IMG/VR virus record: IMGVR_UViG_3300042289_000986
Coordinates: 62,001-126,000 of that record
DNA: 64,000 nt
Direction: 5' to 3' (one strand)
Origin: a virus
This document shows positions 3,188-62,553 of this stretch, piece by piece; within the stretch, counting starts at the first letter, position 1; each line of letters opens with the position of its first letter. The notes below the pieces were generated by a model. The model was not told the origin of the DNA. It saw nothing but the letters and a program-made list of their open reading frames with translations, and made no database searches. The translations under genes were made by a program, and so were the position numbers.

Positions 3188-3196
3188 TTTTGAAAG

Positions 3197-3653
3197 TGGA
3201 GGTGAGGAGAGTTGAACTCCTGTCCAAATAATCTAGGCTAAAAGGTCTACATGTTTGAGTGTCTTTAGCATTTCAGCCACCATACGGTAACGGAGACTTT
3301 AGGCTGCATAGTGACACTAACTGAGTTTATAGTCTGCCTGTAGACATTATCGCAATCTACATACGGTTGATATTTTGTTGTTACGTTAGAACTACCAACA
3401 ATCTAACAACCTCTGCTATCAATGATTCTTTAGAGGATCCAGAATCAAGGTTCTTAGGCGGCTAAGAGCATCTCTTCATCCGCATATGAGGCGAGAACCT
3501 CATCAGCGTTGTTGAAAATACTCTCGGCTTCTGCCAAGAGATCAGAAGTGAAATCTTCTGCATTTAGTTTTTTAATCGATTTTTTACGAGGCCATCGATT
3601 AACCTCGACATGCACTTTTAGTTTCAACTATCTGTCGAAACCAGTACACCCCC
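3197..3653 (-). ncRNA. ssrA: tmRNA (SsrA) with 35-residue tag
   Basis: One-piece tmRNA. The 5' GGGGGUG pairs with 3' CACCUCC to give a 7-bp acceptor stem with a G3-U70 pair, the alanine identity element, and A as discriminator; CCA is not encoded. The 5' part has the tmRNA signature 'CTGGTTTCGAC'. A 5-bp T arm (AGGAG/CTCCT around TTCAACT) closes the 3' end. Pseudoknot 1 is clear: CGAGG/CCTCG and AATCGAT/ATCGATT. Twelve nt after it is the likely resume codon GCA (about 3561). The tag reads AEDFTSDLLAEAES..., then ...ADEEMLLAA-stop: 35 codons in all, ending in the protease-type LLAA. Host tags are usually about 10. No smpB gene is visible in the window, so host SmpB is probably used. Confidence 0.93.
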
Positions 3654-7685: not shown

Positions 7686-7847
7686 ATGGAAAAACATTAT
7701 CAAACACACCAATTGGGGATTGTTTTTGGTCCTTATGGTTCAGTTGGATATGTAGGAACAATACAGCGAGAAGATTTGAAAGAAATCGCTCAGATTTTTT
7801 TCGGATTGTTTCGTTGGGTTAAAACAACTTTAGCTTCATTGTTCTAA
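7686..7847 (+). CDS. Small hypothetical protein
   Basis: 53 residues with one of the best ribosome binding sites in the window (AAAGGAGG, 5 nt before the ATG) and a strong terminator 10 bp after the stop. This is a self-contained monocistronic unit, unlike the SD-less late genes. The N-terminal half is Gly/Tyr-rich; the C-terminal half is an amphipathic helix ('IFFGLFRWVKTTLASLF') that could contact a membrane. No family recognised. The layout suggests a strongly expressed early gene. Confidence 0.6.
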   Translation: MEKHYQTHQLGIVFGPYGSVGYVGTIQREDLKEIAQIFFGLFRWVKTTLASLF

Positions 7848-7857
7848 TCATAAACAC

Positions 7858-7886
7858 AACCCCTCTCGAAAGAGAGGGGTTTTTTA
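7858..7886 (+). terminator. Intrinsic terminator
   Basis: Perfect 10-bp stem AACCCCTCTC/GAGAGGGGTT with a GAAA loop, then a T run. It ends the small gene at 7686-7847. Confidence 0.92.
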
Positions 7887-8509: not shown

Positions 8510-9064
8510 GTGAAAACATTAATCATTCACCCAAAAGATACAAGTACTGTTTTTTTAGAACCAATCTACGAAAAGATTGATAACAAAACAGTTATCCAAA
8601 AAGATTGTTCCTTTGAACAACTTATTAATCTCATTGAAACACACGATAGAATTATGATGATGGGTCATGGTTCTCCTGATGGATTATTTTCTATTGGTAA
8701 TTTTGATGAGGGGTATGTTATTGATAAAAATATTGTGGATTTTTTAAAAAAGAAAAAAGAATGTTTTTATCTTTGGTGCAACGCTGATAAATTTGTTGAA
8801 AAATATCAATTGAATGGATTTTATTCAGGAATGTTTATTTCCGAAGTTAATGAGGCAAATTTTTGTAATGTGAATACCGATCAAAAATTGGTTAATGAAT
8901 CAAATTATTCTTTTTCTAAAATTGTTTCTAAATGGGCAAATTATGATATGAAAAACTTGTATGATAATGTAAAGATGGAATATAGCAAACTTGCAGAGTT
9001 TAATAATGTAGCTCTTTATAATTTAAAAAGACTTTATTATCAAACTAGCATAAATATTATTTGA
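8510..9064 (+). CDS. Possible caspase-fold (CHAT-like) protein
   Basis: 184 residues from a GTG start; TATAAATG lies 5 nt upstream, like the late-promoter motif. A predicted alpha/beta protein: after a beta strand comes 'RIMMMGHGSPDGLF' (His-Gly at about residue 52), and about 30 residues on a further strand ends in 'FYLWCNADKF' (Cys at about 90). A His-Gly after one strand and a Cys after the next is the layout of caspase/CHAT/gingipain-type cysteine peptidases. No other family evidence is visible, so the protease call is tentative. Confidence 0.45.
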   Translation: MKTLIIHPKDTSTVFLEPIYEKIDNKTVIQKDCSFEQLINLIETHDRIMMMGHGSPDGLFSIGNFDEGYVIDKNIVDFLKKKKECFYLWCNADKFVEKYQLNGFYSGMFISEVNEANFCNVNTDQKLVNESNYSFSKIVSKWANYDMKNLYDNVKMEYSKLAEFNNVALYNLKRLYYQTSINII

Positions 9065-9089
9065 CAAAAGGAAAGATCTTTGATATGTT
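9061..9089 (+). promoter_or_regulatory. Sigma70-type promoter for structured RNA
   Basis: TTGACA (9061-9066), 17 bp, TATGTT (9084-9089). The expected transcription start, about 9096, is just before the first hairpin of the noncoding stretch. Confidence 0.75.
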
Positions 9090-9095
9090 AGTAAT

Positions 9096-9404
9096 ACGAT
9101 TTGGTGGCAGTTATAACCAAATCAGGATAAAAATTTTTGCTTGTTGGTGAGTTGGGGTTTTTATCTGAGCTAGGGGAGCCAAGCTGCGGTAAGCTATGAT
9201 CCTATGCATTTATACAATACAAGCTATGGACGAAGTTGTGTTCTGCGGATTGCGGAGCCTTCGTTGAGTAGTGGGACAAATTCTAGAATAAAACCCACTA
9301 AACACCAATTCGGGTTAATCTTGTAAGAGGAGCCGACTTTCCGTGGTTGTATAAACATGGCTGAGATTAGTCCTGAATCGTCGCGGGTAAACGATTCACA
9401 TTTT
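9096..9404 (+). ncRNA. Structured RNA, unknown class
   Basis: About 310 nt without a credible ORF but dense in helices: GATTTGGT/ACCAAATC (9098-9123), GATAAAAA/TTTTTATC, GACGAAG/CTTCGTT, TAGTGGG/CCCACTA, GGGTTAATCT/AGATTAGTCC (10 bp including two G-T pairs) and GAATCGT/ACGATTC near the end. GC content is above the surroundings. It has its own promoter. No RNase P, group I intron or 6S signature was found. It may be a free RNA or the leader of the 34-codon gene that follows. The 3' end is uncertain. Confidence 0.65.
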
Positions 9405-9466: not shown

Positions 9467-9571
9467 ATGACATTAATAATAGGAACAATAGTCTTAGCAT
9501 TTAACATTAAACTTGCATGTTTAGGTTATTTGGTAATGATTACAGAAATGTTTGGCAGACACACTCGATAA
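9467..9571 (+). CDS. Small hydrophobic protein
   Basis: 34 residues with a strong SD (AAAGGAG, 7 nt upstream) and a single membrane helix (about residues 3-27, 'LIIGTIVLAFNIKLACLGYL'), then a short basic tail. It sits between the structured RNA and the terminator, with a stem-loop just upstream (TCGC..GCGA). Small one-helix phage proteins often act on host membrane enzymes; function unknown. Confidence 0.6.
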   Translation: MTLIIGTIVLAFNIKLACLGYLVMITEMFGRHTR

Positions 9572-9598
9572 TGAATGATTCTGACTAACGTTTTTGAA

Positions 9599-9630
9599 AC
9601 AAGGGTAGAGAAATCTACCCTTGTTTTTTT
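9599..9630 (+). terminator. Intrinsic terminator
   Basis: 11-bp stem ACAAGGGTAGA/TCTACCCTTGT with a GAAA loop, followed by seven T. It closes the transcript that carries the structured RNA and the 34-residue ORF. Confidence 0.92.
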
Positions 9631-9657: not shown

Positions 9658-9744
9658 GGTGCGATGGCTGAGTGGTCTAAAGCAGGAGTTTACTAAACTC
9701 TCGAAGTTTAATCGCTTCCGTGGGTTCGAATCCTACTCGCACCG
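9658..9744 (+). tRNA. tRNA-Ser(ACT)
   Basis: Perfect acceptor GGTGCGA/TCGCACC with discriminator G, short D stem GCT/AGC, anticodon stem GGAGT/ACTCT and loop TTACTAA. A long variable arm (GAAG/CTTC) identifies a serine-type class II tRNA. The wobble base is A, so the anticodon is ACT instead of the usual GCT. It would read AGT. Confidence 0.85.
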
Positions 9745-61048: not shown

Positions 61049-62553
61049 AAAAAGTTTCTGGTAATCATTTAGGAATTGTAGTTAATACAACTGACCCCGA
61101 AAATAGAGGAAGGGTTCAAGTTTTTGTTCCACACATTTCCACAACTTTATATTCTGGTTGGAATGAAAACTTAAAAGATATAAAATTTAAAACATTTACA
61201 TCTGATGTTTTTACTGACGAAATAAAACAAAGATTGTGGTCTTTGTTACCTTGGGCAGAAGCTGCGGTCCCGTGTTGGGGTGGTGGTACTGGTGCTCCAA
61301 TTGATGAAAGTACAGGGTTACCAATGCCAATACCAACGGATCAAGCTTTTGCTTCTCAAGGACCTTCTGGCACGATTAGATATAAATCAGGCATATCTGG
61401 TGATGGTTTACAGGGATTTGTTAAAGAAAGGACTGCCGCTTTTTTTGGACAGTTTCCAAACGCAACTATAACGAGTACAACTGGTGGAAGGCACTCTGCT
61501 GGAAGTCTTCATTATTCTGGAAGAGCGATTGATATTAGAACTTATGATCAAAACCCAGAAACAATTCGTCAAATGGTAAATTGGTGGGGTACAGTTGGTG
61601 GCGCAACAGAAATAGGATATGAAGTAAACAGTAGCAGTCCTCACTTACATATTGGTTTTAGAACAGATGGTAGAAGAACCGCTTTTAACGTTGGAAGCAC
61701 CCCTTCATGGTGGGGTGGTTTTGCTTCAGGATTTAGAAATGGAAGTTTACAACAATCTCCAACAAATCCTGGTACATCACAAGCTATTGCTACGGCATCA
61801 GTTAATCCTAGATCTGTTCCAGCAAAAGATGGGTTAAATAATAAAAAAGGAGAAAGAACTGGATCTGAAACAGGTCCTTCACAAGTTTCTGGTACAGGAT
61901 TTAGTCAAAATTTTTTGAATGCTGTAAAAGATTGGGAAGCTGGACCAAACAGAGAATATTTTAACTCAACTGCAATAGATGATGGTGGAATTTATACAAT
62001 AGGTTATGGAACAGAATCTAGACCAGGCGCAACAATTACCGAAGCTGAAGCATCCAGAGCATTGATTGCAGATTTAAGTAAAAGAGCTATTGTGGTAAAT
62101 AATGCATTAAATAATCGAGGAATTACGCTAACACAAAGTCAAAAAGAAGCGTTGATATCTTATACATTTAATAGAGGACCTCGCGGACTTAATGAACTTT
62201 TAAATAAATCTGGTAAAACTTGGGATTCTATAGGACCAAACATGTTAAAATATTGGGGAAAAAATCCAGATGCTCAAGCAGGATTAGTTAATCGTCGCCA
62301 AAAAGAACTAGCACATGCCAATAATGATGGTTCTGGTGGTGGTGCTGTAGAAGGAGACGGTTCAAATGTTTTTAGAACTACAAATGCTGGACAAAATGCA
62401 TATGCCTCAATCAACAGTCCAAGAGCAGGAGGACCGATGGGCTTTTATTCTACACCCGCAGTTGGAGCAAAAGTTTGGGTATTTTTTGAAGCAGAAAATC
62501 CACAAAGACCTGTATTTTTTGCAAATGCTTACGAACCTTCAAATATAATCTAA
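61045..62553 (+). CDS. Baseplate hub lysin with M15 peptidase and lysozyme domains (gp5-like)
   Basis: 502 residues. N-terminal OB-fold 'GIVVNTTDPENRGRVQVFVP' (about 10-30) as in T4 gp5. Residues about 115-210 are an M15/VanY-type peptidase: S154-x-H156...D163 ('SLHYSGRAID') and 'HLH' (200-202). Residues about 285-435 are a GH24 lysozyme: Glu298, Asp312, Thr318 ('WEAG', 'DDGGIYTIGYGT'). The C-terminal 'VGAKVWVFFEAENPQRPVFFANAY' completes the OB or joins the spike. It would cut both glycan and peptide bonds of host murein during DNA entry. 4-bp overlap with the previous gene. Confidence 0.88.
   Translation: MKKVSGNHLGIVVNTTDPENRGRVQVFVPHISTTLYSGWNENLKDIKFKTFTSDVFTDEIKQRLWSLLPWAEAAVPCWGGGTGAPIDESTGLPMPIPTDQAFASQGPSGTIRYKSGISGDGLQGFVKERTAAFFGQFPNATITSTTGGRHSAGSLHYSGRAIDIRTYDQNPETIRQMVNWWGTVGGATEIGYEVNSSSPHLHIGFRTDGRRTAFNVGSTPSWWGGFASGFRNGSLQQSPTNPGTSQAIATASVNPRSVPAKDGLNNKKGERTGSETGPSQVSGTGFSQNFLNAVKDWEAGPNREYFNSTAIDDGGIYTIGYGTESRPGATITEAEASRALIADLSKRAIVVNNALNNRGITLTQSQKEALISYTFNRGPRGLNELLNKSGKTWDSIGPNMLKYWGKNPDAQAGLVNRRQKELAHANNDGSGGGAVEGDGSNVFRTTNAGQNAYASINSPRAGGPMGFYSTPAVGAKVWVFFEAENPQRPVFFANAYEPSNII

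Follow-up and report, generated by a model that had tools for sequence, protein, structure and literature searches.

It is rare for a natural RNA to assemble with other copies of itself, and the phage examples, ROOL and GOLLD, are very large RNAs of no known function. ROOL (~660 nt) is phage-encoded, lies near tRNA islands, contains pseudoknots and forms an octameric cage through several contacts, among them symmetric kissing loops between copies, while GOLLD (over 800 nt, a 14-mer) is likewise found in phage tRNA islands and carries a covarying loop palindrome, L21a, at a homomeric contact (PMC12286853). In the bacterial OLE RNA, which is known to dimerise, loop L9.3 switches between the palindromes GGCC, GAUC and AGCU, and the homomeric contacts of both OLE and GOLLD have been argued from this kind of palindrome covariation (PMC12286853). 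The 37-nt abiF RNA (RF03085) is a trans-acting antitoxin, which in C. difficile neutralises AbiF (PMC12373285), and phage PhiTE is reported to evade ToxIN through RNA mimicry (PMC3475682). In T4, two unexplained stable RNAs of 119–139 nt, rnaC and rnaD (species 1 and 2), lie at the end of the tRNA cluster.

The RNA described here, termed RNA A, is placed within the tRNA array of a large T4-like myovirus. The window analysed, a stretch of 64,000 nt, spans positions 62001–126000 of a virus record that is 211,587 bp long. In this window lie genes for a tail sheath, a ribonucleotide reductase and a large terminase of the T4 type, the last 35–39% identical to its counterparts in Sinorhizobium and Agrobacterium phages, as well as 14 tRNAs and a tmRNA (Table 1). 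As an RNA encoded in or next to phage tRNA arrays, RNA A belongs with the ornate RNAs of phage tRNA islands, and it resembles ROOL in its pseudoknotted fold and in a predicted symmetric kissing loop between copies; it is, however, only 210 nt long, is built from other helices and has a single predicted self-contact. GOLLD offers the parallel of a loop with a covarying palindrome and OLE that of a palindrome-switching loop, with a dimer predicted for RNA A as known for OLE, but OLE is much larger and differently folded, and the Rfam models of ROOL, GOLLD and OLE gave no above-cut-off match to RNA A, whether in the window or in 11 homologue loci. In habitat and predicted assembly logic RNA A resembles ROOL and GOLLD, yet its fold is a different and smaller one. 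RNA A itself has no RF03085 match, although it shares a cassette with abiF-like RNA in some phages. The T4 RNAs recall RNA A in their position; they differ in size, however, and the best score in T4 of the RNA A covariance model, R1 (13.3 bits, E 0.2), does not fall at rnaC or rnaD.

Table 1. Features at and around RNA A, in window coordinates (percentages and double changes from the 17-member structural alignment)
Feature	Position	Strand	Remarks
tmRNA	3194–3653	−	Tag ADEEMLLAA; relatives L036 and L051 also carry a tmRNA
Sigma70-type promoter, TTGACA-17-TATGTT	9061–9089	+	TTGACA 9061–9066, TATGTT 9084–9089; first helix begins 9 nt past the −10 hexamer
RNA A, conserved structured RNA	9098–9307	+	17-member structural alignment; covariance model 123–211 bits in all members
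P1 hairpin	9098–9104 with 9117–9123	+	99% canonical, 5 pairs with double changes
P2	9124–9132 with 9159–9166	+	Loop contains the 5′ strands of P3 and P4; 90% canonical, double changes in 7 of 8 pairs
P3, long-range helix	9139–9144 with 9219–9224	+	100% canonical, 3 pairs with double changes
P4, pseudoknot helix crossing P2 and P3	9145–9150 with 9302–9307	+	93% canonical, 2 pairs with double changes
P5	9169–9207	+	100% canonical, double changes in 5 of 6 pairs
P5 kink-turn signature	GA 9176–9177; 3-nt bulge 9195–9197, then GA 9198–9199	+	17 of 17 versions
P6	Outer 9229–9233/9261–9265; inner 9241–9246/9252–9257	+	Inner: 6 of 6 pairs with double changes
P7 hairpin	9270–9275 with 9294–9299	+	18-nt loop 9276–9293; 98% canonical, 5 pairs with double changes
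10-nt palindrome ATTCTAGAAT	9280–9289	+	Contains the hexamer
Self-complementary hexamer TCTAGA	9282–9287	+	Exact centre of the P7 loop; predicted kissing-loop dimer contact
RNA B	9312–9397	+	Stem 9312–9320/9365–9373; hairpin 9375–9379/9393–9397; conserved loop GTCGCGGGTAAAC 9380–9392
34-codon membrane-like peptide	9467–9571	+	ATG 9467, TAA 9569–9571; not conserved with RNA A
Intrinsic terminator AACAAGGGTAGA-GAAA-TCTACCCTTGTT + T run	9598–9630	+	Hairpin 9598–9625; inverted repeat in BLAST self match
tRNA-Ser(act)	9658–9744	+	Downstream of terminator

A preliminary description, made from the window sequence, had placed one structured RNA behind a sigma70-type promoter, followed by a membrane peptide and a terminator, the whole being a self-contained unit of about 530 nt. 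The promoter, the ORF-free stretch (about 300 nt without a gene), the 34-codon peptide with a strong Shine–Dalgarno sequence a few nucleotides upstream of its ATG, and the terminator, a 12-bp hairpin followed by a T run, could all be read in the sequence, the hairpin being visible as an inverted repeat in the BLAST self match and missing from the list of a simple terminator scan. The structured RNA itself also stood, with conserved and covarying helices, but as two adjacent RNAs, RNA A and RNA B, rather than one. The 530-nt unit proved specific to this genome, because peptide and terminator are missing next to RNA A in its closest relatives (the peptide is absent beside RNA A in L004, L010, L062 and L071). 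The peptide had no match in phages or PHROGs, and peptide and terminator are local extras. A short ORF at window positions 7687–7881 (MEKHYQTHQLGIVFGPYGSVGYVG...), with a strong Shine–Dalgarno sequence and a perfect 10-bp terminator, has the same layout as the peptide unit at 9467–9630. The G+C content is 42–44% inside the element as against 23–37% in its surroundings. Taken by itself, the window was no more than suggestive, since the single-sequence fold was only modestly better than shuffles (z −2.08, with 2 of 100 shuffles equally good) and promoter-like matches in the neighbourhood occurred at chance frequency (18 observed, 21.9 expected); the comparative data, with 17 versions and their covariation, settled that there is a structured RNA.

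Homologues were obtained through a relative search with the upstream gene, which led to three syntenic contigs, and through DNA patterns from conserved parts, which led to more. The family comprises 17 distinct full-length versions in 22 virus records, the window's own included (window = L003, L004, L005, L010, L026, L028, L033, L034, L036, L037 = L039 = L040, L044, L046, L047 = L055, L048, L049 = L051, L062 and L071), with one full-length copy in each member record searched and pairwise identities of 41–97% outside the loop. Beyond the 17 lies a highly diverged relative, L006/L024. The carriers are large, mostly uncultured bacterial viruses. Because homologues were sought with degenerate patterns derived from members already known, the size of the family is a minimum, and more diverged members have probably been missed. 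Against the member scores of R1 (Table 1), unrelated loci reached at most 16 bits; these scores rest largely on sequence, as R1, built with RNAalifold, models just 24 base pairs and leaves out the pseudoknot. A partial second, different RNA A with the hexamer CCTAGG, at L026 11649–11797, lies at an NN scaffold join; it is probably an assembly join and was left out of the copy count.

Searches outside this set were negative. Among 50,697 records of cultured phages, blastn queries with the versions from the window, L036 and L028 gave no meaningful match, scanning the T4, phiM9, Atu_ph04 and S-SSM7 genomes with R1 gave chance-level scores only, and one pattern run against GTDB genomes did not find RNA A, returning two chance matches within coding sequence. 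None of 4227 Rfam families matched RNA A in the window or at the 11 homologue loci, in agreement with the earlier statement that it resembles no known class, and a known Rfam class was rejected on this ground. A group I intron (RF00028) was likewise rejected for want of a model match at RNA A, as was a tRNA or tmRNA fragment, the tmRNA and tRNAs of the window being located elsewhere. No description of RNA A was found in the open-access literature searched, an absence that proves nothing by itself. RNA A is a new family of a kind, the ornate phage tRNA-island RNA, that is already known.

The fold was assessed on a structural alignment of the 17 versions, fitted by hand and leaning towards structure, in which 865 of the 895 cells of 54 pairs were canonical (97%). 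The preliminary description had proposed covariation among homologues as a check, and the helices are conserved: 35 of the 54 pairs showed compensatory changes (144 compensatory cells), and covariation was registered for 29 of 52 scorable structure pairs as against 144 of 19841 other column pairs. Because this alignment was hand-fitted, the pair count was repeated on a plain, unguided MAFFT alignment, which contained 28 pairs with double changes compared to 16.9 ± 2.2 in shuffles (0 of 500), and a covariation score of 0.283 compared to 0.151 in shuffles, with all slid controls far lower. P3 was 100% and the crossing helix P4 94% canonical in this alignment, while P6 was poorly supported because its region is misaligned there. 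RNA A has seven stems, of which the long-range helices P3 and P4 make a pseudoknot out of the P2 loop. In L006/L024, P3 is replaced by AAACATCC/GGATGTTT and P4 by AGTCT/AGACT, in the same order, and the predicted pseudoknot survives complete replacement of its sequence. As P3 and P4 are conserved in the family and rebuilt in this relative, the P2 loop appears to donate two strands to downstream partners. P5 bears the signature of the kink-turn motif, a 3-nt bulge followed by GA with GA on the other strand, which in RNA A is a sequence signature.

The borders of RNA A were compared across members. A promoter-like pair lies a few nucleotides upstream of P1 in L004, L005, L010, L062, L028 and L037, with weaker ones in L034, L036 and L046, and a tRNA end directly precedes P1 in L026, L033, L044, L048 and L049. 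The last conserved 3′ element is the P4 strand, after which follow tRNA-Ser directly (L010, L062), RNA B and then tRNA-Ser (L004, L071), tRNA-Pro (L044), or elsewhere abiF-like RNA or small ORFs. Since the borders coincide with promoters or tRNA ends and the downstream content differs between phages, RNA A is most simply read as a trans-acting RNA of ~210 nt. Whatever its job, the element at 9098–9307 is, as judged from comparative sequence data, probably a structured, trans-acting, dimer-forming RNA. It would be transcribed from its own promoter or excised from the tRNA-array transcript and adopt a compact fold in which the P2 loop pairs with two downstream strands (P3 and, crossing, P4), accompanied by the kink-turn-like P5 and the hairpins P6 and P7; two copies would dimerise where the middle of the P7 loop is self-complementary. 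The RNA is presumed to be stable and active during infection, as RNA or as an RNA–protein particle, with the kink-turn as its likely protein seat.

All copies of RNA A are located within or next to tRNA arrays of the same strand. The phages that carry it often have a tmRNA as well. The tmRNA gene of L028 (3844–4503, minus strand, 84 bits) is apparently intron-bearing, a group I intron match (81.5 bits) overlapping its 3′ part. Directly 3′ of RNA A, abiF-like RNAs were detected in L026 (11161–11196), L033 (1849–1884) and L048 (1406–1441), at scores of 35.1–36.1 bits that lie just below the cut-off of 37, and by inspection also in L036 and L047; most members, the window included, have none beside RNA A. 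In L033, L036, L047 and L048 a further conserved element of ~65 nt (GCGTGATAACAAARCCRGTACAYATTAAG...GGGACGCCTTCGGTTTCYGGKACAAAAACACGYC) follows just 3′ of the abiF-like element. No Abi_2 (PF07751) gene was found on the 7 contigs searched, which covered all abiF-like-bearing ones, and for Abi_2 these contigs show no adjoining toxin gene as in a type III antitoxin locus; the abiF-like element looks like an orphan antitoxin RNA. Because of this company of tRNAs and an abiF-like RNA without Abi_2, together with the trans action of abiF and the mimicry by PhiTE, our first guess, a tentative one made through guilt by association, is counter-defence: RNA A might keep a defence ribonuclease of the host occupied, in the manner of an antitoxin or a decoy, beside the tRNAs and orphan abiF-like RNAs.

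RNA A could instead serve translation or tRNA handling, our next guess, which we consider rather unlikely. It would then be a stable RNA that, in the infected cell, joins ribosomes, tRNAs or the enzymes that process tRNAs. Its constant place in or beside same-strand tRNA arrays would fit such a role, as would the frequent tmRNA in the same phages, the location of rnaC and rnaD in the T4 tRNA cluster, and the binding of GOLLD by ribosomes in pull-downs (PMC12286853). However, no model relationship links RNA A to rnaC, rnaD or tRNA, and location is not decisive, as phage tRNA arrays may also gather counter-defence genes.

The predicted dimer contact of RNA A lies in the P7 loop, which in nearly all members reads ACAANN-hexamer-NNAAAA (18 nt). 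The hexamer (UCUAGA in five versions, UCCGGA in five, CCUAGG in five and UCUAGG in two) is self-complementary in 17 of 17, with Watson–Crick pairs only in 15 and G–U ends in 2. Perfect palindromes in 15 of 17 versions compare with a mean of 5.2 and a maximum of 12 in 20000 column shuffles. On the tree, hexamer positions 3 and 4 changed five times each and always together, counts that come from a short alignment and ignore recombination. L049 and L033, 97% identical outside the loop, carry CCUAGG and UCCGGA, respectively, with four hexamer positions differing and all of them compensated. Adjacent bases cannot pair within one chain, and the covariation therefore points to pairing between chains. 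The signature of a homo-oligomer held by a covarying symmetric loop is strong at the sequence level, and strong support is thereby given to a predicted homodimer, in which two copies join head to head through loop–loop kissing at the centre of P7. Against this prediction count the G–U ends of the two versions and the strength of the hexamer duplexes, which is moderate at −4.4 to −8.7 kcal/mol.

It is also conceivable, though fairly improbable, that the fold is correct while the central palindrome makes no dimer contact and instead binds a dimeric protein or has been retained for some other reason. In favour of this, a single self-contact is predicted and some of the hexamer duplexes are weak, but it is self-complementarity rather than sequence identity that is kept, four-base switches occur between near-identical RNAs, and the exact mid-loop placement with a covarying stem is poorly explained. 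The dimer reading of RNA A has a practical side: the RNA is compact at 210 nt, its fold covaries strongly and its predicted dimer contact is single and easily mutated, so that both dimerisation and purpose could be tested by one compensatory-mutation experiment.

Group I introns and HDV-like ribozymes also have crossing helices with hairpins between them, and RNA A might on this likeness be a self-cleaving ribozyme or an intron remnant with a pseudoknotted core. This is highly improbable, since no Rfam ribozyme or intron model matched at RNA A whereas the group I model did detect the tmRNA intron of L028, the helix order is unlike both, there is no split gene, and the borders at promoters and tRNA ends are sharp. 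Even less credible is a cis-acting leader, a riboswitch or attenuator of the following gene. A short peptide and a terminator do follow in the window, and in L006/L024 an ORF begins a few nucleotides past the last helix, but no downstream gene is conserved (tRNA-Ser, tRNA-Pro, abiF-like RNA and promoters of unrelated small ORFs occupy this place), for which reason the leader was rejected, and no terminator or anti-terminator is common to the members. That RNA A is degenerate coding sequence or a chance fold can practically be dismissed: a single-sequence fold only 2 s.d. better than shuffles might suggest it, but it is refuted by the covariation, the conserved borders and the lack of a shared frame, the longest stop-free runs being 23–64 codons per member in differing frames, and the coding fragment raised in the preliminary description was rejected with it.

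RNA B, directly downstream in the window, is a second, independent conserved RNA. Its hairpin stems covary (GAATC/GATTC, GAGAC/GTCTC, GAGCC/GGCTC and GAGCA/TGCTC), and it also has an outer stem and the motif GAGCCG. In L036, L044, L048 and L049 it is found away from RNA A, flanked by tRNA-His and tRNA-Ala, and it is also present on records where RNA A had no match (L075, L091, L093 and L095). No Rfam family matched RNA B in the window or at the homologue loci, and blastn against the 50,697 cultured-phage records returned nothing meaningful. Phage tRNA arrays hold more unannotated structured RNAs than RNA A, namely RNA B, the toxin-less abiF-like RNA and another conserved hairpin, so that RNA-based counter-defence no longer stands as an isolated case and becomes an idea open to testing. 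A bolder reading would unite RNA A and RNA B with the orphan abiF-like RNA in an RNA-only counter-defence kit, kept and shuffled in the tRNA arrays of large phages, in which RNA A would dimerise with itself and act on a host ribonuclease as its decoy or antitoxin; this extended proposal is speculative and, on present data, unlikely. In L078, L081, L087, L094 and L100, RNA B takes a variant form whose upstream part differs (for example TTAGACGCGGTTTAGCCAGAGGC-GTCGCGGGTAAAC-GCCTC), which suggests that RNA B is a wider family.
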